From: Bacillus sp. ISL-45
GTDB taxonomy: Bacteria > Bacillota > Bacilli > Bacillales > Cytobacillaceae
Assembly (NCBI RefSeq): GCF_018613195.1
Contig: NZ_JAGGQQ010000009.1
Location: forward strand, 62,001 to 126,000
DNA length: 64,000 bases
Direction of reading: 5' to 3'
Every line of letters starts with the position of its first letter. Within the stretch, counting starts at the first letter, position 1. Positions 34,039-64,000 of this stretch are shown piece by piece. The notes under the pieces are model-generated. The model ran no database searches and was not told the DNA's origin. It was given only the letters and a program-made list of their open reading frames with translations. The position numbers were made by a program, and so were the translations under genes.

Positions 34039-35307
34039 TCAAACACCGGCAGCCTTCTTACTGTCATACATCCGGAACATCACCCAGAACAGTACCGCGC
34101 TCAAAAAGGCGAGAATGCTGAGGATGGTGAACGTCCAGCCGTAACCGATCCAGACAGTGAGCGGGATGCTGATCGGTGCAATCGTCCTGCCTATCGTATA
34201 TCGCAATGAAGCGGCGGCAAAATACTGGCCGCGCATTTGTTCAGGTGCCAGGTTGGAAATGAAGGTTTGCTGCAGCCCGGCTGTCATCAGCTCAGCCAAC
34301 GTGAACACAGCCATTGCTGCAATTAAGCCCCAAATCCAATTTGTCGCACCGAACATCAAAATCGCCACAGCATAAATGAGCGAGGACAATACAAACACGT
34401 TTCGTTCGCGGAAACGGGTCACCCATCTTGTTACAACGACAGTAAAGAGGGCTACCAGCAAGCCATTTTCAGAAAGAATCACTCCGAAAGCCTGCTCGCC
34501 ATTGACGGTGAATACCTTGCTGCCAAGTTCAAGCACGGTTTGATTATGCACTGTATCCTTTGTGTAAACAGGGAATAGCAAATCAAGCTGCATGAATGTT
34601 TGCGCCGCTAAAATCCCTGCGATAATGAACATGAGAAAAACCTTATCCTGGATAATGACCTTGTAATCAGCGATCTGCTCTTTAAGGAAGTCATACCATT
34701 TCCCATTTTCCGCACGTGCCTGCCTTGCTGAAGCAGGTACTGTTTCACGCGTCCATTTTGCGAGGACTAGCGCAAGCAGGATGGAGATGATTGCGACCGC
34801 TATCATTAATTCAAACCGGTACTTGACATAAAAAATGGCTCCGAGAATCGGGCCGACAACAACAGCAATATTGATCTGCGTATAAAAAATCGCGAATACA
34901 CTGCTGCGGTCTTTTTCAGGGACCACGTCCGCAACCATCGCCTGGCTGGCCGGCCAGTAAATAGAGCCGAACATCCCGACGAGCGTAAAGCAGATGAACC
35001 CGAGCAGCGGCGAGGTGAACCATGGTGAAACCGCATAGGCAAAAACAAGAAAGGCAATTCCCTGGCCAAAAGCTGAAATCACCATCATCCGTTTGCGCCC
35101 GAACCGGTCGGCGGTATACCCGCCCATCAAATTGGCGAATACCGAAAAGACCTGGGATAAGACGAGCAGGAAGCCCGCGTTGCCCTTCCCGAAACTTTCC
35201 GCAAAATAAATCGTTAAAAACGGGAAAAACATCCAAAATGTTATATTCATTAAAGCCTCGCCAAACAAGCGAATCTTCAAGTTTCGATCCCAATCCCTAA
35301 TCCTCAT
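34039..35307 (-). CDS. MFS transporter, probable drug/metabolite exporter
   Basis: 422 residues from ATG 35307 (AAAGGAG eight bases upstream); the longer frame runs into the MITE-like element. Twelve predicted helices, motif A GGYTADRFGRKRMM after helix 2, and an inserted soluble segment in the large extracellular loop (DTVHNQTVLELGSKVFTVNGEQAFG). Proton-driven export is expected from the family. Substrate unknown. Confidence 0.85.
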   Translation of the reverse strand: MRIRDWDRNLKIRLFGEALMNITFWMFFPFLTIYFAESFGKGNAGFLLVLSQVFSVFANLMGGYTADRFGRKRMMVISAFGQGIAFLVFAYAVSPWFTSPLLGFICFTLVGMFGSIYWPASQAMVADVVPEKDRSSVFAIFYTQINIAVVVGPILGAIFYVKYRFELMIAVAIISILLALVLAKWTRETVPASARQARAENGKWYDFLKEQIADYKVIIQDKVFLMFIIAGILAAQTFMQLDLLFPVYTKDTVHNQTVLELGSKVFTVNGEQAFGVILSENGLLVALFTVVVTRWVTRFRERNVFVLSSLIYAVAILMFGATNWIWGLIAAMAVFTLAELMTAGLQQTFISNLAPEQMRGQYFAAASLRYTIGRTIAPISIPLTVWIGYGWTFTILSILAFLSAVLFWVMFRMYDSKKAAGV

Positions 35308-39041: not shown

Positions 39042-39072
39042 AAAGCAGGTGTACATAACGTACGCCTGCTTA
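39042..39072 (-). terminator. Terminator of the recombinase gene at the attachment boundary
   Basis: AAGCAGGCGTAC / GTACACCTGCTTTTTATT on the minus strand, overlapping the recombinase stop and abutting the cut UPF0145 gene. Confidence 0.85.
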
Positions 39073-40515
39073 TTTTGCGCTTTCAATCCAGAATGGTTTA
39101 GGGTTCCCTGGACTGGTCTTTGCGTTCTCATCAGAATCAATGACAATATCCTCAAAAATCTCCCGTAGGAGAATTTTGCGTTCTTCATCTGTAGACATGT
39201 CCCAGAGACGGGGAAAGTTCTCTATAAGTTGTTCCAATTCTTCAAATGAATATGCAACTGGGGAAGGGGAGTCTTTTGTGATTCTGTCCTTCAGTTCTTT
39301 TTCTTTTTGTCGGAGTAGCTGAGTTTTCGAATTGAGCTCCTCGATGTCGATTAAGTCATTGATAAACATCATTTTATATTTTTCCATTGTTCGCTGAATA
39401 GTAGCTAACTCTATATCAACTTCGTCCTTTGATTGAGCTTCTGACTTCTGAATAATATTATCAGGTTGAATCCAGGCATAAACCAACTTAGAAAAAGATT
39501 TCATTAACTCATCTGTCATTCTGTCTTCCTGGATGCTGGGCATACTGCAGGAGCGTCCCTTTGTCTTATTGCTGCATCGATAGAATTTAACAGTTCTTTT
39601 GGGATTCTTATAATGGTAAGAGGTACCCTGCATCGGAGCGCCACATTTTCCACACTTGAGGATAGAAGTGAAGTAATAGCCCCCAGTCATTCCTCGACCT
39701 TTGGATTCCTTTCTTTGATCCAAAAGTGCCTGCAAATCCCAAAATTCATCCTCGTCGATGATTTTCTCAATATCAGCATCGAACAGCTGCTGTTCTGAAA
39801 GAGGGAGGCGAAGCTGATGTCTTTCGTTGTTGAATCTGAATTTACCGATATATACGGGATTTTTAGCAATGTATTGGACAGTGTATCCAGCCCACTCAGC
39901 TCCCTTGCGAGTGCGTGAAGTTTGATTCAGAATCCTGGCTATCCGGTCCATTCCCATGGTCCTGGCCATCTTGAAAATTCTCTGTACAATCTTCTTTTCT
40001 TCTAGTACTACTTGAAACTTTCCGTTTTTCTGTATGTATCCATAGGGAGCAGTACCTCCCAGCCATTCTCCAAGGTTCGCCTTTTTGAGCATCCCCATTT
40101 TTACTCGCTCGCCTAAATTTTCCCTTTCCCACTGAGCAAGAGCAGCAACCAAGGTGATAAACAGCCTGCCTGTTGCGGTTGTCGTATCATAAATCTCTGT
40201 AGCGGATTTGAATTTTACTTCATGCTCATCAAATTCAGCCAAGAGCCTGTAGAGATCGAGCACTGACCTGGTTAAGCGATCAAGACGATATACCAGGACA
40301 ACATCAAACATACCGGATTTTAAATCGCCTAGTAATCTCTGAAGTTTTGGCCTCTGCAGGTCCTTGGCAGAGAATCCTTCATCCTTATACATTTTAACTA
40401 CTTCCCAGTCCTGGGAAGTGCAGTAGGCAAGAAGGCGTTCTTCCTGCGCGGCAATAGAGTAACCGTGTTTTGCCTGTTCATCGGTACTAACACGGACATA
40501 AATGGCAACTCTCAA
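39070..40515 (-). CDS. Large serine recombinase (phage integrase)
   Basis: 481 residues from TTG 40515 (AGGAGGG upstream). Resolvase-type catalytic domain with Ser10 in YVRVSTDEQ and RLDRLTRS near 78. A recombinase domain (about 160-260) follows, then a zinc ribbon (CGKCGAPM...YRCSNKTKGRSC, about 290-325), a coiled coil (about 360-405) and a C-terminal tail. It integrates the phage at attP x attB and needs a directionality factor for excision, which I cannot identify. Likely in one transcript with the two genes upstream. Confidence 0.95.
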   Translation of the reverse strand: MRVAIYVRVSTDEQAKHGYSIAAQEERLLAYCTSQDWEVVKMYKDEGFSAKDLQRPKLQRLLGDLKSGMFDVVLVYRLDRLTRSVLDLYRLLAEFDEHEVKFKSATEIYDTTTATGRLFITLVAALAQWERENLGERVKMGMLKKANLGEWLGGTAPYGYIQKNGKFQVVLEEKKIVQRIFKMARTMGMDRIARILNQTSRTRKGAEWAGYTVQYIAKNPVYIGKFRFNNERHQLRLPLSEQQLFDADIEKIIDEDEFWDLQALLDQRKESKGRGMTGGYYFTSILKCGKCGAPMQGTSYHYKNPKRTVKFYRCSNKTKGRSCSMPSIQEDRMTDELMKSFSKLVYAWIQPDNIIQKSEAQSKDEVDIELATIQRTMEKYKMMFINDLIDIEELNSKTQLLRQKEKELKDRITKDSPSPVAYSFEELEQLIENFPRLWDMSTDEERKILLREIFEDIVIDSDENAKTSPGNPKPFWIESAK

Positions 40516-41356: not shown

Positions 41357-41929
41357 ATGCTAACTGATTTTGATATCAGAGCAAAATTAATTGAAAAAAT
41401 CCATAAAGAAAATCAAGGTAAACACTATCGTGTTATTGAAGAACTTGGAATCTGTGATGGTTTAGCCAGAGCAGATATCGCAGTTGCTAATGGGGTATTA
41501 CTTGGTTATGAAATAAAGAGTGATCACGACAGCCTGGAGCGTTTACCGAATCAGGTAATATGCTATGACAAGACATTTGATAAAAACACCATTATTGTAG
41601 GTGAAAAATTCGCTGATAAGATTCATGAATTTGTTCCAGACTACTGGGGGATTGAAGTTGCTTACATCAATCGTTTCAACCACGTCTCTCTTAAACGAAT
41701 AAGAGCGAGTCGCAGAAACCAACACATTGTTGCCACCAACCTTTTAGACCTACTTTGGACCCCTGAAATAAAATCGTTTTTAAAACAAAATAAAGTTAGG
41801 GGTTATTCTAATAAAGACAAAGCAGGTCTCAAAGAACTGGCAACTTCATTTATCCCAATAAAAGATTTAAAAGAATTTACTCGAGAAACACTAAAAACTA
41901 GGACTGGGTGGAGAGAAGATCTACTATAA
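41357..41929 (+). CDS. sce7726-family protein, PD-(D/E)XK-like nuclease fold
   Basis: 190 residues, GGAG before ATG. D40 in ARADIAV, E52 and K54 in GYEIKS, followed by ERLxxQxxxY, give the D-x(11)-ExK core of PD-(D/E)XK nucleases and the pattern of the sce7726 family. It sits in the lysogeny arm facing the Beta-family gene and overlapping it tail to tail by 32 bases. Genes in this place usually serve the host-phage contest; a defence role is inference. Confidence 0.7.
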   Translation: MLTDFDIRAKLIEKIHKENQGKHYRVIEELGICDGLARADIAVANGVLLGYEIKSDHDSLERLPNQVICYDKTFDKNTIIVGEKFADKIHEFVPDYWGIEVAYINRFNHVSLKRIRASRRNQHIVATNLLDLLWTPEIKSFLKQNKVRGYSNKDKAGLKELATSFIPIKDLKEFTRETLKTRTGWREDLL

Positions 41930-42896
41930 ACGTAATATGGTGATTAGTTCCAATTGAACGCCATGTTGTTAGGTTACCTGATTTGGTAGACTCTCCGCTT
42001 GCTTTTTCGTTTATTTCATTATCTCCCCATGAAAAGTCTTTACCGAAGTAGTATGGTGACTCGACAATTTTTTGACAACCAACTTGTACCTTATCAATCT
42101 TGAGTCCACCTTTTTTATTTGTATCCCCTTTGTAAACCACATAATGGTCCCCAGTTGAGTAACGGATATTGAAAGATGGCTGTATACCCACTATAAATTC
42201 AAAGAAACTCCAGTGGTTAACTGCGTAGTCTGCATATACAAGTGGAACGTTCAATTTATTTAAATGCGACTTAATTTTTTCATATATCTTTGACTCCACT
42301 CTAGGAAATGTTGTTAAGTCGTAACGCTCTACATCCATGGTATTGGGAAATGAATTACTTGCAAATATGACTCTTCTAAAACTTTCAATACCTTCAATTG
42401 CGTCAAGGGCACCTTTAATTAGGAATGTTGCTTCATTTATCTTTGAAGGATCTATAAATTGAGCATCAATTATGATATCCGTCTGAGATAAGTTAAGCTC
42501 AGAAATTCGTTCAGTGAACATTGTATCAAACATGTCGTCCAATATTTCCTCAAGAAAAAGCCTTAAAGCAACACCATTTAGTGAATCCTTTTGCAAAGTA
42601 GTCACTAGTTCATCGCTATCTGCTAACTTAATCACTGGTATAGCATGATCCTTGTTGCACTTTCCCAACAACCCCAAATAATCATCATCTGAAGTTTCTT
42701 CCCATAACTCAGGAGATACATCCAAGAAGAATGGGCGGTCTCTCCAAAAATCTTCAACTCCACAGAATGATCCCTTTGCCATTACATCTGGCGTGACTTC
42801 TAAGAGCGGGACTACTTTGTCTTTAACACTTGCATTTAAGGTGAAGAGTGCATCTTTCTCGCCTTGTTTACATTTTAAAATTGGAACATATAACAT
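41898..42896 (-). CDS. Beta-family protein (phage T4 beta-protein-like domain)
   Basis: 332 residues. It starts MLYVPILKCKQGEKDALFTL and continues VVPLLEVTPD, the opening of the Beta protein family, followed by alternating beta/alpha segments (ISELNLSQTDIIIDAQFID, FRRVIFASNSFP) consistent with a barrel. Proteins of this kind (sce7725 group) are found beside sce7726-family nucleases, which matches the neighbour here. Function unknown; likely cargo expressed in the lysogen. No clear terminator; its 3' end is shared antisense with its neighbour. Confidence 0.7.
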   Translation of the reverse strand: MLYVPILKCKQGEKDALFTLNASVKDKVVPLLEVTPDVMAKGSFCGVEDFWRDRPFFLDVSPELWEETSDDDYLGLLGKCNKDHAIPVIKLADSDELVTTLQKDSLNGVALRLFLEEILDDMFDTMFTERISELNLSQTDIIIDAQFIDPSKINEATFLIKGALDAIEGIESFRRVIFASNSFPNTMDVERYDLTTFPRVESKIYEKIKSHLNKLNVPLVYADYAVNHWSFFEFIVGIQPSFNIRYSTGDHYVVYKGDTNKKGGLKIDKVQVGCQKIVESPYYFGKDFSWGDNEINEKASGESTKSGNLTTWRSIGTNHHITFIVDLLSTQS

Positions 42897-46972: not shown

Positions 46973-47920
46973 ATGACAATGAACCAAAATGCTATTCCTA
47001 CTCATGAAATGAGTCGTTATGAATGGCTTCAGGAACGCACTAAAGGAATAGGCGGTAGTGATGCTGGAATCATCCTTGGATTGAATAAATACCGTACAGC
47101 ATTTGAACTTTGGCTTGAAAAAACAGGCCAGGTGGAACCGATTGAAGTAGATAATGAAGCCGTCTACTGGGGAAACGAAATGGAAAACGTTGTGGCCAAA
47201 GAGTTTGAAAAAAGAACAGGTAAAAAGGTTAGGCGGACTAACTTCATGTATAGCCACCCGGATTATCCTTTCATAAAGGCGAACATCGATCGGCTGGTTG
47301 TCGGTGAATCAGCGGTCTTGGAATGCAAAACAGCATCAGCATACCTAGCAAAAGAGTGGGAAGCAGATGAGGTTCCTGCAACCTACCTAGTGCAGTTGCA
47401 ACACTATCTTGGTGTGACCGGCAAGGAAAAAGGATACATGGCGGTGCTGATCGGCGGCAACAAGTACATTTGGAAGGAAGTCGAGCGTGACGAAGAACTC
47501 ATTGAAATGATATTCAAAGCAGAAAAGCATTTTTGGGAATATCACGTTCAACAATTTAATGCACCAGACTTGGACGGATCTAGTGCGGCCGAGCAGTACC
47601 TGAAAGAAAAGTATGCGAAAGCTGAAGCAAACAAGGAAATTGTTCTACCAGGTGAATACAAGGACATGATTGTCCAATATGAAAAGGTTAAGGAAGACGA
47701 AAAACTCATCAAGACAGCCAAGACAGAGATTGAAAACAAACTGAAAGCTGAACTGAAGGATGCGGAAACCGGCTTGACCGATACCTATGTAGTGTCTTGG
47801 AAAAACCAAATACAACAGAGGGTCGACTCAAAGGCTCTGAAAGAGAAATTCCCTGATATCTATAAGGAAGTCATTAAGAAAACCAGCTTCCGTAAATTCG
47901 CTATAAAGGAGATAAAATAA
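46973..47920 (+). CDS. yqaJ: YqaJ-family phage recombination exonuclease
   Basis: 315 residues, GGGAGGG before ATG. Lambda-exonuclease fold with GIGGSDAGIILGLNKYRT (about 24-41), WGNEMENVVAKEF and VLECKTAS, supplying the Glu/Asp/ExK metal ligands. It resects double-stranded ends to expose strands for the RecT annealing protein encoded two genes downstream. A C-terminal lysine-rich coiled segment follows. Confidence 0.93.
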   Translation: MTMNQNAIPTHEMSRYEWLQERTKGIGGSDAGIILGLNKYRTAFELWLEKTGQVEPIEVDNEAVYWGNEMENVVAKEFEKRTGKKVRRTNFMYSHPDYPFIKANIDRLVVGESAVLECKTASAYLAKEWEADEVPATYLVQLQHYLGVTGKEKGYMAVLIGGNKYIWKEVERDEELIEMIFKAEKHFWEYHVQQFNAPDLDGSSAAEQYLKEKYAKAEANKEIVLPGEYKDMIVQYEKVKEDEKLIKTAKTEIENKLKAELKDAETGLTDTYVVSWKNQIQQRVDSKALKEKFPDIYKEVIKKTSFRKFAIKEIK

Positions 47921-47921
47921 T

Positions 47922-48131
47922 ATGGCAGCTATCTCAAGGAAAACAGCTATCGGTTCTTTAATTGAACAGTTTTTGGATGATAACGAGGGTGATATTTCTC
48001 CAAACTTGTACTCGAATTTGGAGTCCCTTGCGGAGGAAGTGGATGATGCTGCCAAGGACTTACATGATGAAATTGACGAGCTGCAGGACAGGGTGAAGGA
48101 ACTGGAAGAGGAATTGGAGGCGGTAGAGTAA
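47922..48131 (+). CDS. Acidic coiled-coil phage protein, 69 residues
   Basis: Starts two bases after yqaJ and its stop overlaps the recT start. The C-terminal half is a heptad coiled coil (LHDEIDELQDRVKELEEELEAVE). Tight coupling between exonuclease and annealing protein genes suggests an accessory of that pair. Confidence 0.7.
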   Translation: MAAISRKTAIGSLIEQFLDDNEGDISPNLYSNLESLAEEVDDAAKDLHDEIDELQDRVKELEEELEAVE

Positions 48132-49072
48132 TGGCAACAAATTCAGCATTGAAAAATCAATTAGCAAATAAACAAGGTTCAGAGGCGAAGCAGGTCTCTG
48201 CTCAGTCTCTTGGCCTTAAGAATCTACTTAATACACCGACTATGCAAAAGAAGTTTGACCAGGTCCTAGCTAAGAAAGCACCACAATTTATGGCGTCTAT
48301 CCTGAATCTATACAACGGGGATCCAAACCTACAGGCAGCCGAACCGATGTCAATCGTGTCCAGCGCGATGGTAGCTGCAACCCTTGATTTGCCGGTGGAT
48401 AAAAATTTAGGTTACGCCTGGATTGTCCCTTTCTATGATACGAAAAAGGGGGGTAAATTTGCACAGTTCCAACTCGGTTACAAAGGATATATTCAGCTGG
48501 CATTGAGGACAGGCCAATACAAATCGATAAATGTCATCGAGGTCCGTGAAGGTGAACTAGTCAAATGGAATCGCCTCACTGAGGAAATCGATTTGGATTT
48601 GGACTCAGCCACAAGTGAAAAGGTAATCGGATACTGCGGATATTTTAAATTGGTTAACGGTTTTGAAAAGACAGTTTACTGGACCCGTGACCAGGTGGAA
48701 GTACATCGTATTAAACACAATAAAATGAAGAATAAAAAAGATCTCAACAATGTTTGGCGCTCAGATTACGATGCAATGGCCATGAAAACAGTTCTTCGTA
48801 ACATGCTTGGAAAATGGGGTATCCTCTCCATCGAGATGCAAAAGGCTATGACGGAGGATGAGAATTCGGAACGTGAATTAAAAGATATCACGGACGAGGC
48901 AGAAGAAGTTGAAGCATCGGAACCAAATCCGGATATCATAGATATTTCTCCCGAAGAAGATGAACAAGCAGAAACAGTCGAAGGAGAAATCATTGATAAG
49001 AAGCCAGACAAGGAAAAGAACAAGAAAGATAAGATGTCAGCACAAGATTCAATGGACATTGAATTCGAATGA
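48131..49072 (+). CDS. recT: RecT-family single-strand annealing protein
   Basis: 313 residues. The RecT core covers about 30-225 (AEPMSIVSSAMVAATLDLPVDKNLGYAWIVPF, FQLGYKGYIQLALRTGQY, RSDYDAMAMKTVLRNMLGKW). An acidic C-terminal tail follows. It anneals complementary strands and, with YqaJ, carries out phage homologous recombination. Confidence 0.95.
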   Translation: MATNSALKNQLANKQGSEAKQVSAQSLGLKNLLNTPTMQKKFDQVLAKKAPQFMASILNLYNGDPNLQAAEPMSIVSSAMVAATLDLPVDKNLGYAWIVPFYDTKKGGKFAQFQLGYKGYIQLALRTGQYKSINVIEVREGELVKWNRLTEEIDLDLDSATSEKVIGYCGYFKLVNGFEKTVYWTRDQVEVHRIKHNKMKNKKDLNNVWRSDYDAMAMKTVLRNMLGKWGILSIEMQKAMTEDENSERELKDITDEAEEVEASEPNPDIIDISPEEDEQAETVEGEIIDKKPDKEKNKKDKMSAQDSMDIEFE

Positions 49073-49233
49073 TTAACAGCAACCATACAAATGTCCTCCT
49101 TCCAGCGTGGATCTGGGAGGAGGCTAAGGATAAGGAACGCTTGAAAAAGCTTGTACTAGAGTATATGCAACGATACCCGGATTATACCGTCAAGAAGGTT
49201 AAAGATAGATTTGCGGTTTGTGAGAGAAGATAG
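49069..49233 (+). CDS. Small phage protein, 54 residues
   Basis: ATG overlaps the recT stop (ATGA), with no own ribosome site, so translation would be coupled. LLPAWIWEEAKDKERLKKLVLEYMQRYP then VKKVKDRFAVCERR; soluble, basic. No family recognised. Confidence 0.55.
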   Translation: MINSNHTNVLLPAWIWEEAKDKERLKKLVLEYMQRYPDYTVKKVKDRFAVCERR

Positions 49234-49251
49234 GGAGGGGGAGAGAACAGC

Positions 49252-50115
49252 ATGAACTACATTAAGGAGCTTAACGCATTCTATGATTGGCTCGAAATAA
49301 ATGAACTGTCTCCATCAGCAATTAATTTATGGTACGCCTTGATGCACATAAATAATAAGGCTGCATGGGCAGAAACATTTACGGTGGCCGAATCGGTGTT
49401 ATGCGTGAAGACAGGATTGACAGATCGAACCCTTCGAAAAGTAAGAAATGAACTAAAACAAAAAGGCCGGATAGATTTTATATCCAGAAAAGGTGGGAAG
49501 GCGCCCATTTACAAACTCCTATCCTTCTATTCTACGGAAAATAATTCCGTGCATCTAATACCTACGGAAATAAATTCCGGGGATAGTGCCGGGGATAGTG
49601 CCGGAGGTAGTGCCGGAGATAGTTCCGCATTAAATAAACTAAACGAAACTAAATTAAACAAAATAAAAACAACTGCTGCTTCACGCACGAATTACGCGGA
49701 TGAATACACTCTCTGTTTTGGTGGACATCCTAGTCCCATTCAAATACAGGAAATTAACAGTTTTATAGATCAGGATGGGTTGAGTATTGAGGTCGTATGT
49801 ATAGCGTTTAAAAAAGCAGCTGAGGTGGGAGCTAAGTACCCCTATGCAAGGAGCATACTGAACAGCTGGGCCAATAAAGGCATAAGAACTATTGCTGATG
49901 TTGACAATGAACAAGCTACCCATGATTTACATAAACATCAACAACGCAATAGACCAAGAAAGGGAACATCGTCACGTACTGAAGCCCTGCCAGAATGGTT
50001 CAGGAAAAAGGAAAATATAACCCCTCCTGCATCAAATGAGGAGGACAATGAAAACTTTGAAATTGAAAAAGCCAAATTGGAAGAAGAGCTTAGACAGTTC
50101 AAAAGAGTTAAATAA
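49252..50115 (+). CDS. DnaD-like phage replication initiator
   Basis: 287 residues, AGGGAGGGGG before ATG. N-terminal winged helix (about 1-95: LSPSAINLWYALMHINNKAAW...LTDRTLRKVRNELKQKGRIDF). A repetitive Gly-Asp-Ser-Ala linker (106-122) follows, then a DnaD-type domain (about 150-220: IQIQEINSFIDQDGLSIEVVCIAFKKAAE...YARSILNSWANKGI). It should bind the origin and bring in the host helicase. No DnaC-type loader gene follows, unlike in skin-type phages. The linker DNA carries iterons. Confidence 0.85.
   Translation: MNYIKELNAFYDWLEINELSPSAINLWYALMHINNKAAWAETFTVAESVLCVKTGLTDRTLRKVRNELKQKGRIDFISRKGGKAPIYKLLSFYSTENNSVHLIPTEINSGDSAGDSAGGSAGDSSALNKLNETKLNKIKTTAASRTNYADEYTLCFGGHPSPIQIQEINSFIDQDGLSIEVVCIAFKKAAEVGAKYPYARSILNSWANKGIRTIADVDNEQATHDLHKHQQRNRPRKGTSSRTEALPEWFRKKENITPPASNEEDNENFEIEKAKLEEELRQFKRVK
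49535..49672. promoter_or_regulatory. Candidate phage replication origin inside the initiator gene
   Basis: Two inverted repeats CGGAA-N5-TTCCG (49535-49549, 49565-49579) are followed by four 12-bp direct repeats CCGG(G/A)GATAGTG from 49577 to 49624. Then comes a stretch of about 45 bases, mostly A and T (49628-49672), suited to strand opening. Origins embedded in the initiator gene are common in phages of this kind; no experimental support. Confidence 0.6.
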
Positions 50116-57424: not shown

Positions 57425-58177
57425 ATGGCTGAGAAATATATGTTAGCCGAAAAAGATTATGACGAAGGCATGAAGTACAAAGACATTGCCGAAAAATACG
57501 AGGTCTCAATCAATACGGTTAAGTCATGGAAAAAACGATATGGCTGGAATCGAGATAGGGGTGCACCCTCTGAAAAAAGTGTGCACACAAAAAAACGTGG
57601 AGCTCCTAAAGGAAATATCAACGCTAAGGGTAATAGTGGGGGGGCAGCACCAAAAGGAAACCAGAATGCTATGACTCATGGATTCTATTCAAAGTTCCTG
57701 CCAGCCGAAACCCTGGAGATTATGGAAGCGATGCAGGAGCGAACAGCAGCTGATTTAATCTGGGACCAGATTCAAATTCAGTATGCTGCTATCATCCGTG
57801 CCCAACAGATCATGTTCGTCCAGGATAAGGGTGAAATGATTAAGGAGCTTAAGAAAGCGAAGTATGAATATTACCCACGGGCTAAAGAGGATGGCGGAGG
57901 ATTTGAAAAGTCAGTTACCGAGGAAGAATACGAATTTCAGTTCGCATGGGACCGCCAAGCTTCTTTCCTGAATGCTCAGTCCAGGGCAATAGGTGAGCTC
58001 AGGAGTTTGATCAGGCAATTTGATGAAATGGCCCACGCTGAAGATGAACGAAGGCTTAAGCTTGAGCAACTGCAGTTGAATGTTGCCAAAACAAAAGCCG
58101 AGATTGATAACATGAACGATGATGGTGAGGATGATGTAGTAAACATCGTTATCACTCGAAAAGAGGCGCGTGGGTAA
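57425..58177 (+). CDS. Phage terminase small subunit
   Basis: 250 residues. N-terminal HTH (about 5-40: [30 protein letters not shown]), a Gly/Lys-rich linker with GAPKGNxNA repeats typical of PBSX-type small terminases, then a helical oligomerisation part. It recognises pac DNA and regulates the large subunit. One-base overlap with the large subunit gene. Confidence 0.9.
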
Positions 58178-59484
58178 TGGACATCAACAAAGAAGTTAAT
58201 CCACGGTTCGAGGACTTCCTCTTTGACTGGAATCAAAAGTTCCAGTTTCTTATGGGAGGATACGGTTCCTCTAAGTCTTATCATGTTGCCCTAAAAATCA
58301 TTTTAAAATTACTTTCTGAAAAACGTAAGGCTCTTGTGATCCGTGAAGTATATGACACGCACAAAGACAGTACGTTTTCTTTATTTACCGAGATAATCGA
58401 GGATTTGGGTTTGTTGGATGATAGTGGCCGAAAAAAGATTGCCAAGGGCAAGATAAGGCCAAAAGAAAGCCCATACGAACTACGGTTCTCCAACGGTTCC
58501 AGAATCATCTTCAAGGGAATGGACAAGCCGGCAAAGCTGAAATCTATTAACAACGTATCCCTTATATGGTTGGAGGAATGTTCAGAGGTAAAGTACGAGG
58601 GTTTTAAAGAGTTGATCGGTCGTTTGCGTCATCCGACACTCAAGTTGCATATGATCCTTTCAACTAATCCAATCGGTGAAGACAATTGGACATATTTGCA
58701 TTTCTTTAAAGACGATGAAAACGATCGTTTCGTTCTGGATGATAATGAACTTTATCAAAAAGGAACAATCGTTGTTGGGGATACTTACTATCATCACTCA
58801 ACGGCAGACGATAACCTATTCCTGCCTGATAGTTACATCGAGCAGCTGGATGAATTAGCTGAGTATGATCCTGACTTACATCGTGTTGCCAGGCTGGGGC
58901 GGTACGGGGTTAATGGTATAAGAGTTTTGCCTCAATTCCAAGTGCAGCCACACGAGGAGGTAATGAGGGCGATCGATGAAATAGGCAAACCGTTATTTAA
59001 AAATGGTTTGGACTTTGGATTTGTTGAATCATATAACGCTTTGGTCCGGATGGCGATTGATCATGAAAACAAATACCTCTACATTTTTGAACAGTATTAC
59101 AAACGTGGTATGACAGACCCTGAGCTAGTTGAGGATTTGGAACCATACAAAAAGATAATGATCAAGGCCGATAGCGCTGAACCTAAGACGATTGCATATT
59201 TCAGACAAAGAAGATTTAGGATTATGGGAGCGAAGAAGGGACCTGGATCGAGACTTCAAAACACCAAGAAAGTGAAGAGGTTCAAAAAAATTATTTGTTC
59301 CGATGCTTGCCCGGATGTAATAAGAGAACTGAAGAATTTAACCTTTGCTAAAGATAAAAAAGGCAAAATAATCGAGGACGAATTCAATATCGATCCTCAT
59401 ACATTCAGTGCTATTTGGTACGGCTTGGATGATTACGAGGTTGCTAGTATTAAAGGTCATAACGCAAGACGCAAAACGGGGTAG
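58177..59484 (+). CDS. Phage terminase large subunit, PBSX/SPP1 family
   Basis: 435 residues. ATPase Walker A-like GGYGSSKS (27-34), Walker B SLIWLEE (128-134), coupling motif LSTNPIG. The C-terminal RNase H-like nuclease has [12 protein letters not shown] and KADSAEPK acidic residues. Powers DNA packaging and cuts concatemers (headful type by family). Confidence 0.95.
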
Positions 59485-59493
59485 GTGAAAACA

Positions 59494-61008
59494 ATGCTGA
59501 AATTCAAGGAATACATCGATAAGAATGGCATCGATGAAAAAACAGTGCTAGAGATGATTGATGCCCATAGCAAAATCAGAGCACGAATGAGGAAGATGTA
59601 TCAGCGGTATAAAGCTGATCTTGATGGACCAACCATTTTTACCCGTTCTGCTACAGCTTATGAAGAAAAGTTTGAATCGGGTGGCAATGTTCTTCGAATT
59701 GATGATAAAGTGAACAACCAGCTTAACAATGCTTTTGATGCGGATATCGTCGATACGAAGATCGGTTATATGTTCGGTCATCCTATCAGTTACGATGTTG
59801 ATGATACCAATGAGGCCCTTAGATCGGAGCTGGAAGCATTCCTTCTTAGCAATAATGCAGAAGATAACGATTCAGAATATGGAAAGATGGCTGCAATATG
59901 CGGGTATGCAGCAAGACTGGCATACATCGATAAAGTAGGAGATGAAAGAATAAAAAACATAGATCCATGGGAAGTCGTCTTTCTGGGGGATGAGATCCAC
60001 GAACCGGATTATTCTCTCCGGTATTTTTATCGAGATGAGGAAATTTTTGCCGAGTTCTATGATGATATCTACATTTATTTTTTCAAAGCAAATCAGGGCG
60101 GAGAGTTTAACCTCCAGGATATCCAGCCACACATGTTTGACTTCAATCCTCTTTTTGGAGTGGCAAACAACAAAGAATTAAAAGGGGATGCCGAGAAAGT
60201 TCTTGCTCTTATCGATGGTTACGATCGCACGCTCTCAGATGCTTCCAATGAAATTGAGCAATATCGGTTAGCCTATCTCATTCTGAGGGGAATGGGAGCA
60301 GATGAGGAGACACTGGCTAACCTCAAAAAGAACGGAATTTTCGAGTTGCTAGGCGAGAATGATGATGTCCGTTACCTTACAAAGGATATTAACGACACCA
60401 TGATTGAAAATCACCTTAACCGACTTGAAGAGAATATCTTACGATTTGCTAAGTCGGTGAACTTCACAGACGAATCATTCGGTACCCAGCTTAGTGGAGT
60501 GGCGATGAGATTTAAATTAATGGCCCTGGAGAACAAATGTATCACTATGGAGCGTAAGTTTGCTGCTTCCCTCCGTTATCAGTTCAAGGTTCTGTTTAGT
60601 GCCTGGTCAAAAAGGAAAGGGTTTAGTCCTAAAGATTACCTTAAAATCTTTTTTGGTTTTAAGCGAAACCTTCCTGCAAATATCTTGGATGAAGCACAAT
60701 CAACAGCTCAGCTGAAAGGGCATATCAGCGAGCGAACCAGATTAGGGCTTCTTTCTTTTGTTGATGACGTTGAGTTTGAAATTGAGGAAATGAAAAAAGA
60801 TGCTGTTTTGCTAGGTTCCCAGCTTGAACCATTGACAGATGATCTGGACGAAGAAGATCTGCCGGATGATGATAAAGGGAATTCGGGCAAAACAAGCAAA
60901 GGAACTAAACCGTGTACTACCTGCAGCGGGACAGGTAAAGTGCCAAGTAACATTACAGGAAACCTCATTCAGTGCAAAACATGTAAAGGTACCGGGGTGG
61001 TTGGCTAA
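59494..61008 (+). CDS. Portal protein, SPP1 gp6 type, with C-terminal DnaJ-like zinc motifs
   Basis: 504 residues from ATG 59494 (AGGTGA close upstream; GTG 59485 possible). Typical portal core (YIDKNGIDEKTVLEMI, VDTKIGYMFGHPISY, SGVAMRFKLMALENKC). The last 35 residues hold CTTCSGTG and CKTCKGTG, two CxxCxGxG motifs of the DnaJ zinc-finger kind joined by a short linker, unusual for a portal. It forms the dodecameric DNA gate of the head. Confidence 0.9.
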   Translation: MLKFKEYIDKNGIDEKTVLEMIDAHSKIRARMRKMYQRYKADLDGPTIFTRSATAYEEKFESGGNVLRIDDKVNNQLNNAFDADIVDTKIGYMFGHPISYDVDDTNEALRSELEAFLLSNNAEDNDSEYGKMAAICGYAARLAYIDKVGDERIKNIDPWEVVFLGDEIHEPDYSLRYFYRDEEIFAEFYDDIYIYFFKANQGGEFNLQDIQPHMFDFNPLFGVANNKELKGDAEKVLALIDGYDRTLSDASNEIEQYRLAYLILRGMGADEETLANLKKNGIFELLGENDDVRYLTKDINDTMIENHLNRLEENILRFAKSVNFTDESFGTQLSGVAMRFKLMALENKCITMERKFAASLRYQFKVLFSAWSKRKGFSPKDYLKIFFGFKRNLPANILDEAQSTAQLKGHISERTRLGLLSFVDDVEFEIEEMKKDAVLLGSQLEPLTDDLDEEDLPDDDKGNSGKTSKGTKPCTTCSGTGKVPSNITGNLIQCKTCKGTGVVG

Positions 61009-62021
61009 TGGATCAATTTAAGATTCGTGAGCTGCTGGACAAACTACTAGGGAAAACAGAGTCCGATATTGAAAAGGTGTTTGCTAGACGGCTCGAGTCG
61101 ATTTTTCTGCAGATCGGTGAGATGTTCAGGAAGTACGAGAAGAAGGGTGAGCTCTCTTACACAGAGCTGAACAAATATAATCGGTTCCAAAAAGAAATGG
61201 AAATCATTAGCAACATGTTCAACTCTGATTACAAGCAGTTGATCAAAATGATTAATGCCTCAATGGAAACTCAGTATGTAGAGAGCTTTCTCATGCATGC
61301 ATACCTTTTCCAAATGAGTGCATCAACGGAAATGGGATTCACTCTCCCGTCTATGACGACCATTAAATTGGCTCTTGCTAATCCTGTAGACAAATTAACT
61401 TTGCCCTCTGTATTTACAGAGCATAGGAATGAGATCATCCGGAAAATCAATATTGAAATCAGTCAGTCACTAATTGCTGGTGAAGGTTATACAGCAATGG
61501 CAAAAAGAATTGAGAATGCGGTGAACTTCTCGAAAAAGAAGGCGATGCTCGTAGCCAGGACTGAGGCAGGTCGTGTTCGTTCTCTTTCCGATGAAGAAGT
61601 GGGAGAGCAGGCTGCCAAATACGCAACTATGGATAGTATATGGGCATCATCGTTGGACCTGAGGGTCAGGAGCTCACACAGGGAATTAGACGGCCAGAAG
61701 GCTGACAAGGATGGATATTTCCATTACAAAGGCATGAAATCAAAAGGGCCTCATCTGTGGGGTAAAGCTAACATGGACATTAACTGCCGTTGTGTAAAGC
61801 TTCGACTTGTAAATGGTATGCTGCCTGAATATCGCCGAGGCAGGGACTATAAGAATCCTGATTACCAGAAGAAGCTGGCGGCCCGCTTAGAAGCGTTGAT
61901 GGCTGACGAAGACCTAACATATGCAAAAGCATTGAAAAAGGCACAGAAGGCAGTGAAACCTCCTTCTACCACAATGCCTTATGTGACATTCGAGGAATGG
62001 AAAAAGAAATATGCTTCCTAG
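61008..62021 (+). CDS. Phage head morphogenesis protein (SPP1 gp7/MuF type)
   Basis: 337 residues, starting in a TAATG overlap with the portal stop. The C-terminal MuF domain has ARTEAGRVRS, DSIWASSLDLRVRSSHRELDGQ and INCRCVKLRL. A few copies are packed into the head with the portal; in SPP1, gp7 affects DNA exit. Confidence 0.92.
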   Translation: MDQFKIRELLDKLLGKTESDIEKVFARRLESIFLQIGEMFRKYEKKGELSYTELNKYNRFQKEMEIISNMFNSDYKQLIKMINASMETQYVESFLMHAYLFQMSASTEMGFTLPSMTTIKLALANPVDKLTLPSVFTEHRNEIIRKINIEISQSLIAGEGYTAMAKRIENAVNFSKKKAMLVARTEAGRVRSLSDEEVGEQAAKYATMDSIWASSLDLRVRSSHRELDGQKADKDGYFHYKGMKSKGPHLWGKANMDINCRCVKLRLVNGMLPEYRRGRDYKNPDYQKKLAARLEALMADEDLTYAKALKKAQKAVKPPSTTMPYVTFEEWKKKYAS

Positions 62022-62032
62022 GAGTGATCAAC

Positions 62033-62299
62033 ATGCCGAAAGTTGTGCGCCTGTTTAATGAGCAGGAGAAAAATCAAATGGGCTTGGTAAAACATATTGA
62101 GGAACTTCTTGAAAAGGCCAAGAGTGGAGAAATACAGAATGTTATGGTTGCTGCGGAAGCATCAGACCGGACGATCATGACGGGTTATTACAATCTGGAC
62201 GCTCAAGAAAAACAGTACATGCTGGGCCATGTTCAAGCGGATATCACAATGGCTATTGTAGAAGCGAATGTCGATAGATTGATTGAATTTATCGATTAG
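62033..62299 (+). CDS. Hypothetical phage protein, 88 residues
   Basis: ATG 62033 with AGGAG upstream. HIEELLEKAKSGEIQNVMVAAEASDRTIMTGYYNLDAQEKQYMLGHVQADI; soluble alpha/beta. Its place between MuF and the Prp-like gene suggests a head-associated role. No family recognised. Confidence 0.65.
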   Translation: MPKVVRLFNEQEKNQMGLVKHIEELLEKAKSGEIQNVMVAAEASDRTIMTGYYNLDAQEKQYMLGHVQADITMAIVEANVDRLIEFID

Positions 62300-62314
62300 A
62301 AAGGAGAGGCTTAT

Positions 62315-62500
62315 TTGACTAAGGTAACTGTCACCGTTGGCGAAGATGGTTATATGAAAATTGAAACGGATGGACATGCTCAAAGCGTGGTTTGTGCCTC
62401 TGTATCCACTCTCTTGCAATCGTCCGTCAGGTTTCTGCAGGAGCTTTCCCAACAGTACCCGGATGATCTTCAAGTGACAATTAAACAAAGAACAGATTGA
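62315..62500 (+). CDS. Prp (YsxB)-like mini cysteine protease
   Basis: 61 residues, TTG with AAAGGAG upstream. Beta strands (KVTVTVGEDGYMKIETDGH), then VVCASVSTLLQSSVRFLQEL, then a final strand (LQVTIKQ) reproduce the Prp fold order. H21 in GHA and C27 in VCASVS align with the catalytic His22 and Cys34 of Staphylococcus aureus Prp, but the loop between them is about six residues shorter. Prp trims ribosomal L27 and, in phage 80alpha, scaffold and capsid proteins. The position right before scaffold and capsid supports a maturation role; activity with the short loop is uncertain. Confidence 0.6.
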   Translation: MTKVTVTVGEDGYMKIETDGHAQSVVCASVSTLLQSSVRFLQELSQQYPDDLQVTIKQRTD

Positions 62501-62584
62501 CCTGGGCAAGTCATTAAAAGGCTTATTTTTTTATACCCATTTTGACATGCAGGCTCGAACTGCATGGCTAGGAGGAAGTAGAAC

Positions 62585-63232
62585 GTGAAAAAATTCGATT
62601 TTCTAAAGGTTAATATTAAGCAATTCGATGCCAGCACAATTAACCTTGCAGCAGTGAAAAAGTTCTTGGAAGATAACAAGGATCAGGAAGAAGTGAAAAC
62701 CTATCTTGGGGAACTTTCTGCCGTGTCAGCAGACAAGGTGAAAGGTTTCTTGGATACGGAGGATGGAAAGAGGCTACTTCAGCCACGGCTAGACAGCTAT
62801 TTCACCAAGGGGTTAGATTCCTGGAAGGCCAACAACCTTGAGGCTCTAGTCTCTGAAGAGGTCGCTAAACGTAACCCTGCCCAGACAGAGGAGCAGAAAC
62901 GAATCGCGGCACTTGAGAAGGCTCTTGAGGACCAGCAAAGGGAATCACAACGAGAAAAACTTATGAACCTTGCAATCAAGCAGGCTACGGAGAAGAAACT
63001 TCCTGTTGACCTGGTTAGTTATTTCCTTGCGGAAGATGAGGAGAAAACCACTGCTAACCTTGCGAAACTTGAAGAAACATACAACAAGGCCATCCAGGAA
63101 GCTGTAGACAGCAAATTCAAGGATAAAGGCCGGGATATACAACAAGGCGGCAGCACAGGTGGCGGTACAATCAAATCCATTCAGGAAATGGCTGCAGCAC
63201 ACAATATTCGTAATCAAAGTCAAAACAATTAA
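62585..63232 (+). CDS. Phage scaffolding protein (DUF4355-like)
   Basis: 215 residues, GTG with AGGAGG upstream. Helical and charged, with a coiled coil at about 95-130 (EEQKRIAALEKALEDQQRESQRE) and a C-terminal tail with GGSTGGGTIKSIQEM. The N-terminus FLKVNIKQFDAS shares VNIKQF with the capsid N-terminus. A CATGCAG/CTGCATG hairpin lies just upstream (62546-62566). It directs capsid assembly and leaves before maturation. Confidence 0.82.
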   Translation: MKKFDFLKVNIKQFDASTINLAAVKKFLEDNKDQEEVKTYLGELSAVSADKVKGFLDTEDGKRLLQPRLDSYFTKGLDSWKANNLEALVSEEVAKRNPAQTEEQKRIAALEKALEDQQRESQREKLMNLAIKQATEKKLPVDLVSYFLAEDEEKTTANLAKLEETYNKAIQEAVDSKFKDKGRDIQQGGSTGGGTIKSIQEMAAAHNIRNQSQNN

Positions 63233-63248
63233 AAGGAGGCCATCATAA

Positions 63249-64000
63249 ATGGCAGTAGCATTGGCAACATCATTAGTAACATCTTTACTCGCAGTTAACA
63301 TTAAGCAATTTGAAGAGCAAACGTATACTCCAGATCATGTATTAATGCAAAACGCGAAAACAGGGTTAATTCCTCAGGAAGAGGGCGGTCTGATCATTGA
63401 GGATGTGATCAAAGGATCAACCATCATGAAGCTTGCAAAATATGAGCCTATGACTAAGCCAAAGAAGACATTCTCCTTCAAGGCTAAAGGAGCCGGCGCG
63501 TACTGGGTATCAGAAACAGAAGTTATCAAGACTTCAACAGTTGAATGGCTTACTGCTTCAATGCAGGCAGAAAAGCTAGGTGTCATTATCCCATTCTCTA
63601 AAGAATTCTTACGCTATACAGCTAAAGACTTCTTCAATGAAGTTAAACCGTTGGTTGCTGAGGCGTTTTATCAAACATTTGATATTGCTGCATTGTTCGG
63701 TACAAACTCGCCATTTGCTACTCATACTAGTGGTAAGGCAATCTTCACTGGCGCAACTGATGAAGGAAACCTGATTGCGTTGGGATCTGGTACTGACCTC
63801 CAGGATGAAGTCTTTGACTTAATGGCCCTTATCGAGGCAGGTGGATTTACTCCTGATGGGATGGTAGCAACAAATGCATTCAAACAGAACCTGCGCCGTG
63901 CAAGGAACGCTACAAATGGTGAAAGGTACTACACGAACCTAAATGACGTGGAAGGCCTGGCTGTAACTTACTCCAAGCCTGAAGCATTCGACGCTACTAA
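63249..64000 (+). CDS. Major capsid protein, HK97 fold (3' end outside window)
   Basis: ATG 63249, AAAGGAGG upstream; 250 codons visible, still open at the edge. An N-terminal arm (residues 1-25, LLAVNIKQFEEQTYTPDHVLM) is followed by IMKLAKYEPMTKPKKTFSF, GAYWVSETEVIKTSTVEW and LGVIIPFSKEFLRYT, close in pattern to the 80alpha-type capsid protein. The VNIKQF segment matches the position of the processed LNLQHF arm of 80alpha. Confidence 0.9.
   Translation, partial: MAVALATSLVTSLLAVNIKQFEEQTYTPDHVLMQNAKTGLIPQEEGGLIIEDVIKGSTIMKLAKYEPMTKPKKTFSFKAKGAGAYWVSETEVIKTSTVEWLTASMQAEKLGVIIPFSKEFLRYTAKDFFNEVKPLVAEAFYQTFDIAALFGTNSPFATHTSGKAIFTGATDEGNLIALGSGTDLQDEVFDLMALIEAGGFTPDGMVATNAFKQNLRRARNATNGERYYTNLNDVEGLAVTYSKPEAFDAT

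Follow-up and report, generated by a model that had tools for sequence, protein, structure and literature searches.

A predicted half-size Prp-family protease and its matched tag on scaffold and capsid in a prophage head module of Bacillus sp. ISL-45

The 64,000-nucleotide stretch of Bacillus sp. ISL-45 analysed here (hereafter the window; contig NZ_JAGGQQ010000009.1, forward strand positions 62,001 to 126,000) ends inside a prophage head module, where a small open reading frame (ORF) for a predicted half-size cysteine protease of the Prp family, here called mini-Prp, precedes the genes for a head scaffolding protein and the major capsid protein. All three genes lie on the + strand, and coordinates are given as window positions. 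The 61-residue mini-Prp (62315-62500) starts at a TTG codon that, on direct reading, is preceded by a ribosome-binding-like stretch on the + strand, AAAGGAGAGG (62300-62309). Its predicted catalytic residues are His21 (codon 62375-62377), within the motif GHA, and Cys27 (codon 62393-62395), within VCASVS. The scaffold that follows (62585-63232; DUF4355, PF14265 at 91.8 bits; phrog_172) has 215 residues and begins MKKFDFLKVNIKQFDAS. The capsid protein (PF05065 family, 62.5 bits; phrog_10) begins MAVALATSLVTSLLAVNIKQFEEQ and has 328 residues in full, of which the window holds the part encoded at 63249-64000, the gene continuing beyond the window end. Both proteins carry the tag VNIKQF near the N-terminus: at residues 9-14 of the scaffold (62609-62626), with a predicted cut between Phe14 and Asp15 (VNIKQF↓DAS), and at residues 16-21 of the capsid (63294-63311), with a predicted cut between Phe21 and Glu22 (VNIKQF↓EEQ). 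The original prediction for this DNA had described a 61-residue ORF with GHA and VCASVS adjoining a scaffold and a capsid that share VNIKQF, and our reading confirms it. A six-frame scan of the window with a relaxed form of the VNIKQF motif returned the scaffold, the capsid and one unrelated frame on the - strand at 35280.

Mini-Prp matches Peptidase_Prp (PF04327) at 31.7 bits against a curated cut-off of 27, over profile positions 1-56 of 90, which supports the earlier proposal of a phage-encoded Prp-like protein. It also matches PHROG 4478, 'peptidase' (1e-5), and lies far under the cut-offs of the NCBIfam Prp models. The solved structures best matched by the mini-Prp profile are TM1457 (1S12, E 9.8e-8) and Staphylococcus aureus Prp (6.1e-5). 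In the S. aureus enzyme, Gly21, His22, Cys34 and Ser38 are described as required, Asp31 holds a flexible loop and its replacement (D31A) is inactive, the substrate P3 Gln bonds to Gly29 and Asp31 of that loop, and the P1' residue is limited in size (PMC9405229). Mini-Prp shares with S. aureus Prp the catalytic segment G-H ... C-A-x-x-S. The G-H, the C-A and the following Ser are invariant in 15/15 mini-Prps of the window's kind (Bacillus-type, see below) and in 39/39 of a second group, the Kromp clade; these 54 proteins retain equivalents of Gly21, His22, Cys34 and Ser38, the census omitting L114, whose match begins at residue 20. The equivalent of Asp31 is absent: the residue three before Cys is Ser in 15/15 Bacillus-type proteins (Ser24 in the window) and Gly in 39/39 of the Kromp clade, as against Asp in 43/43 full-length Prps, these full-length rows having been gathered by a pattern that permits Asp or Ser and covering 43 of 44 loci (the Prp of L142 was not picked up). 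His and Cys are spaced by 6 in the window, 10 in the Kromp clade and 12 in 43/43 full-length Prps, and mini-Prp is without the flexible substrate loop that goes with a spacing of 12. Also wanting is the second half of the Prp fold, which comprises another hairpin and helix and the Gly65 contact; 61 residues suffice for one half only. Mini-Prp thus differs from S. aureus Prp in length (61 versus 106 residues), in its spacing, in having Ser for Asp, in the loss of most of the second half, and in the place of its gene in a phage head operon. Of the 'short-loop Prp variant' originally proposed, the short spacing (6 versus 12) stands; the missing second half and the missing Asp had gone unnoticed. 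A short loop is not strictly family-defining, because Thermotoga maritima Prp is also short-looped. That protein, TM1457, which comes from a species without the long L27, is like mini-Prp in its loop, but it has 94 residues and both halves and keeps its Asp19, as described in PMC9405229.

Relatives of mini-Prp were collected from IMG/VR (8 loci, two of them alike), from 193 genomes of the family (10 matches, comprising 6 strong ones, among them that of the own genome, and 4 weak ones, which were set aside), from genomes of the species (8 mini-Prps and 2 full-length Prps) and from 397 genomes of the order (3 mini-Prps, own included). After removal of duplicates (L005, L012-L016, L032, L117-L123, L413, which is the L029 locus, and others), 15 distinct loci including the window made up the set that we label Bacillus-type, its titled relatives being mostly Bacillus, Cytobacillus, Fredinandcohnia, Lysinibacillus and Psychrobacillus. 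Scaffold and capsid are the next two large genes after mini-Prp in 15/15 loci, and all 30 of these proteins carry the tag, with the hydrophobic P4 and Phe P1 of head maturation as in phage 80alpha. P6 is V, L, I or A, P5 is N in 28, P4 is I in all 30, P3 is K in 23 (K, Q, H, R, S, G and N being the residues that the search pattern allows there), P2 is Q in 28 and P1 is F in all 30; at P1' we found D in 19, E in 5 and A, V or F in the remainder. The scaffolds of L003 and L006 read PINIKQF, with Ile at P6. The tag persists despite a change of capsid family, from phrog_10 in the window to phrog_544 in L003 and L027. Mini-Prp codons are constrained, with a mean proportion of nonsynonymous differences (pN) of 0.202 and of synonymous differences (pS) of 0.761 (pN/pS 0.27, 105 pairs), and within a locus the stretches that encode the two tags are identical at only 16-22 of 27 nucleotides while the residues agree. 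Since the codons are constrained, the tag DNA has diverged with its residues kept and the pairing occurs in all 15 loci, the association of protease and tag goes beyond chance. One further record, L028 (JAGGQZ010000008.1), is titled Chryseobacterium and has a capsid gene product 98% identical to that of the prophage; the title may reflect a mislabel or contamination.

Homologues without the tag indicate where a leader would end. In staphylococcal phage Sebago the capsid, which is 50% identical, is missing a block of 20 residues and opens with MATPTYTPG, against F21↓EEQTYTPD in the window. Four leaderless scaffolds, 31-54% identical, begin at residue 19 (Sebago, L058 and L059) or 17 (L055), that is, 2-4 residues beyond the predicted F14↓D15 cut. 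Because untagged homologues start within about 4 residues of the predicted cuts, the tag is taken to lie in a leader, outside the fold. Among the 193 family genomes we found 15 scaffold relatives, five of them (mutually related) with both the NIKQF tag and a mini-Prp and ten with neither. Seven of these ten are leaderless, L057 has a canonical RLDLQYFA, L061 has another N-terminus and L060 a broken frame; the genomes of the ten gave no mini-Prp match.

A comparable arrangement with another tag is found in Streptomyces phage Kromp. Its gp6, annotated as a protease, is a 62-residue Prp-family protein (29.6 bits) encoded between a scaffold with WFQLTRH↓DD and a capsid with WFRLDRH↓DI, which belong to families other than those of the window (phrog_4708 and phrog_1357, respectively). 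Like the window's mini-Prp, gp6 is half-size, adjoins a tagged scaffold and capsid and has lost the Asp (Gly in Kromp), but its His-Cys spacing is 10 and its tag is FxLxR(H/F)↓D, not NIKQF. Relatives of the Kromp protein occur on 39 further contigs, giving 40 loci with Kromp. Tags with the consensus F-x-L-x-R-(H/F)↓D were found on 39/40 scaffolds (the L093 contig is cut off) and 40/40 capsids, counts that combine two pattern scans of which one misses L084 and the other L113.

The pairing was also examined from the side of the tag. The pattern LP(L/I/V/M)NIKQF occurs in 14 IMG/VR stretches; in seven, of head type, the tag falls at the N-terminal end of a scaffold or capsid, with a mini-Prp in 7/7 cases, two of these seven being alike and all seven contigs having also been reached through the protease search. 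The other seven lie in frames of 19-42 residues (five) or in an unidentified frame of 170-192 residues (two), with a mini-Prp in 0/7. WFRLDRHD gave 56 stretches with 61 in-frame instances, of which 51 are of head type, each with a same-strand mini-Prp no more than 1.1 kb away, and the remaining 10 have no mini-Prp. As a control, LNLQFFA(D/E) matched at least 120 stretches; among the 80 examined, 77 were in frame, and of these none had a mini-Prp, two had a full-length Prp and 75 had neither, with many near-copies in the sample and at least 2.5 kb upstream in view for 48 of the 77. The earlier idea of a matched, diverged motif is supported both by these scans and by the co-variation of protease and tag in the two mini-Prp clades.

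The host genome encodes a 110-residue Prp between an L21-like gene and the gene for L27, which starts MLRLDLQFFASKKG with a canonical tag. The prophage is therefore not short of host Prp, a full-length enzyme and a canonical L27 being present in the same genome. In 80alpha, the cutting of capsid and scaffold is reported to be done by host Prp, cleavage of either is dispensable for viability, and the scaffold N-terminus is required in assembly even if uncuttable (PMC5744158). The window's tags are like those of 80alpha in lying at the N-termini of scaffold and capsid, in their hydrophobic P4 and Phe P1, and in their equal register; they differ from the S. aureus Prp tag in a P3 that is mostly Lys, a Gln at P2 and an acidic P1'. 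Gln at P3 was found in 28/28 L27 tags versus 1/30 Bacillus-type and 1/79 Kromp-clade tags, and Ala at P1' in 28/28 versus 3/30 and 3/79; P1' is acidic in 24/30 Bacillus-type and 74/79 Kromp-clade tags. The first tag scan had fixed Ala at P1' for L27 and limited P1 and P1' for the Kromp clade, and a repeat that freed both recovered L27 in 28/30 loci and the same Kromp-clade tags. The comparison with the host L27 N-terminus that the original prediction had suggested shows a canonical host L27 and phage tags that lack its P3 Gln and P1' Ala.

Sequence data already contain Prp genes carried by phages, those of full length being common: 468 IMG/VR pattern matches include 428 relatives, of which the best 80 were kept. 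In these 80 loci together with L124, at least one downstream frame bears an N-terminal xLQx(F/H/Y/L) in 71/81 and at least two do in 63/81; Ala occupies P1' in 142/170 of these tag matches, some of which are due to chance. Ten phage loci read singly (TP712, phiFL3A, TMW 1.1365 P3, phiS13, Lj965, PLgT-1, BL3, DO134P1, Krappator149 and one unnamed) have full-length Prps and tags such as LNLQFF↓A, MNLQIF↓A and LDLQRF↓A, the P1' exceptions being Ser in the TP712 capsid and Thr in the DO134P1 capsid. Such Firmicutes phage Prps (PHROG 4478; phiFL3A, TP712, Lj965, phiS13) resemble the window's in lying near head genes and in having a tag common to scaffold and capsid, but they are of full length, keep the Asp and go with a tag xLQxF↓ mostly followed by Ala. 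In many phages with a full-length Prp (L349, L362, L378, L383, L386 and others of L329-L408) a third protein, about 170-230 residues long, also bears an LQxF-A-like tag; it is encoded about 3.2-3.9 kb downstream of Prp at the expected place of the major tail protein.

Two records bear on the link between the Asp and the tag. The L025 contig holds a third, lone mini-Prp of about 60 residues (L025:5989-6168), about 19 kb from the contig's head genes, with Ser three before Cys and with tags LQMF↓S and LQMF↓G in which P3 Gln is kept. Loss of P3 Gln need not follow loss of Asp, since this protein with Ser pairs with P3 Gln and with Ser or Gly at P1'. On the same contig (L409:4999-6863) the Mu gpT-like capsid and the preceding protein share KM(D/N)LQMF followed by Ser or Gly; a PF05065 capsid search of the L025 record gave no match, its capsid being Mu gpT-like, and a scan with the L025 protein as query matched L025 itself only. 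In L124 a full-length Prp (L124:4511-4792) has Ser in place of the Asp three before Cys, and the adjoining frames of 242 and 328 residues are tagged FDLQLF↓E. That an Asp at this position goes with a small P1' may serve as a lead: all 80 phage Prps have Asp, but Asp was demanded by the scan pattern.

Against the halves of full-length Prp, the mini-Prp profile matches the N-half at E 7e-14 (residues 1-44) and, almost ungapped, the C-half at E 3e-8 (residues 3-60), and the two halves match each other at E 0.015. The tail of mini-Prp alone matches the C-half at 8e-7 and its helix favours the N-half (5e-7 versus 0.019); the window-type hairpin matches either half about equally (4e-4 and 3e-4), and the Kromp-clade hairpin is without a C-half match (0.08). 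An internal deletion of about 45 residues and descent from a one-repeat, single-unit ancestor explain these data equally well. With either origin, one helix would stand in place of two and a homodimer would bring back the size of Prp; mini-Prp may work in this form. In a tree built from 79 rows over 51 columns, a single clade of all mini-Prps is not rejected (approximately unbiased test, p-AU 0.533); the free search places the two mini-Prp clades apart and draws the single L025 sequence, on a long branch, into the Kromp clade. A tree of this size is compatible with one origin of mini-Prp and with several.

The family match, the conserved catalytic residues, the codon constraint, the pairing in every locus, the separate tag of the second clade and the position of the leader ends make one explanation the best, and we consider it quite likely: a minimal, phage-owned Prp-family protease cuts the scaffold after Phe14 and the capsid after Phe21 during head assembly, in which mini-Prp would use Cys27 with His21 to trim the tags. 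Sequence comparison gives good support for a real protease-tag pair; mini-Prp is probably active, and the cut presumably lies after the Phe. Host Prp would then not do the cutting, and head maturation would be free of the host enzyme, as the original prediction held. A Pfam scan of seven head-module proteins found no classical prohead protease of the HK97 or T4 type. Loss of the Asp and of the loop would remove both the need for P3 Gln and the bar to an acidic P1'; going by their co-occurrence in two clades, this relaxation appears to be the simplest mechanism. A wider proposal, tentative and somewhat on the improbable side, is that mini-Prp consists of a single Prp unit, half a fold of beta-beta-alpha-beta type, acting as a homodimer whose two active sites stand in for the two-half fold, and that in at least two phage clades protease and targets have evolved into separate pairs, one with NIKQF↓D and one with FxLxRH↓D, neither of which still crosses with the L27 protease of the host.

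Several points weigh against cleavage by mini-Prp. As mini-Prp lacks the Asp31 equivalent and most of the fold's second half, activity is not assured, and, given that cleavage is dispensable in 80alpha and that close leaderless homologues exist, the step itself may be dispensable. The loci are related within clades, gene order is fixed and the tag-scan matches fall largely on contigs also reached through the protease, so the counts are not independent; moreover, the context-based head-type rule and the tag patterns were drawn up after the sequences had been seen.

Host Prp might instead cut VNIKQF as it does in 80alpha (PMC5744158), with mini-Prp a leftover or a helper that presents the substrate, and the intact full-length host enzyme would allow for this. 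We regard it as unlikely, given that window-type tags lack the P3 Gln and P1' Ala of 28/28 L27 tags and that mini-Prp has invariant catalytic residues and constrained codons. In addition, Kromp, whose recorded host Streptomyces is outside the long-L27 groups listed in PMC9405229, has the same pairing, a point drawn from this one phage. It is similarly improbable that the shared N-terminal segment serves as a signal for assembly or docking, with mini-Prp as its catalytically idle binding partner: an uncuttable 80alpha scaffold N-terminus is still required in assembly (PMC5744158) and mini-Prp lacks the essential Asp and loop, yet the His, Cys and active-site Ser, unneeded by a mere binder, are invariant in both clades, and the tag ends near the starts of leaderless homologues, as for a removable leader. 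Full-length phage Prps are common and the short form resembles one with its middle removed, but that the ORF is the decayed remnant of such a gene, and the common VNIKQF a coincidence or the product of gene conversion, is scarcely credible when 15 loci keep length, catalytic residues and tag, pN/pS is 0.27, the tag DNA differs between scaffold and capsid, and a second clade has the same size.

Upstream of mini-Prp the head module comprises genes for a small terminase (57425-58177; phrog_509), TerL (58177-59484), a portal protein (59485-61008, + strand) and a Mu F-like protein (61008-62021), followed by a 100-residue ORF (61997-62299, + strand) that overlaps the Mu F-like gene and matches only PHROGs of unknown function. 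The C-terminal end of the portal protein has a CxxCxGxG-like stretch that Pfam matches weakly, at 0.0029 to Anti-TRAP and at 0.044 to the central domain of DnaJ. Beyond the window end, the contig continues with ORFs resembling connector and tail genes. Further upstream in the window lie a large serine recombinase gene (39070-40515, - strand), a gene of the Beta_protein family (41898-42896, - strand) and YqaJ, RecT and DnaB_2 genes (46973-50115, + strand), as would fit the left part of the prophage.

A literature search at the level of titles and abstract openings found no account of half-size Prps and none of a phage Prp that is paired with a tag of its own. The system is ordinary in its general kind and unusual in size and tag specificity, and it is the half-size form with a re-specified tag that sets the window apart from the known full-length phage Prps. 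A protease of 61 residues, if mini-Prp is active, would be very small among proteases, and together with its short, exact tag it could be an orthogonal cutting tool. With mini-Prp and tag partnered repeatedly, the co-evolution of enzyme and substrate can be tested on defined pairs. In several Gram-positive pathogens Prp has been described as a target for antibiotics (PMC9405229). Natural half-size variants of altered specificity would reveal what the enzyme can do without and the residue pairs that govern its choice of target. They would also show how phages can have as their own a step for which 80alpha relies on its host.
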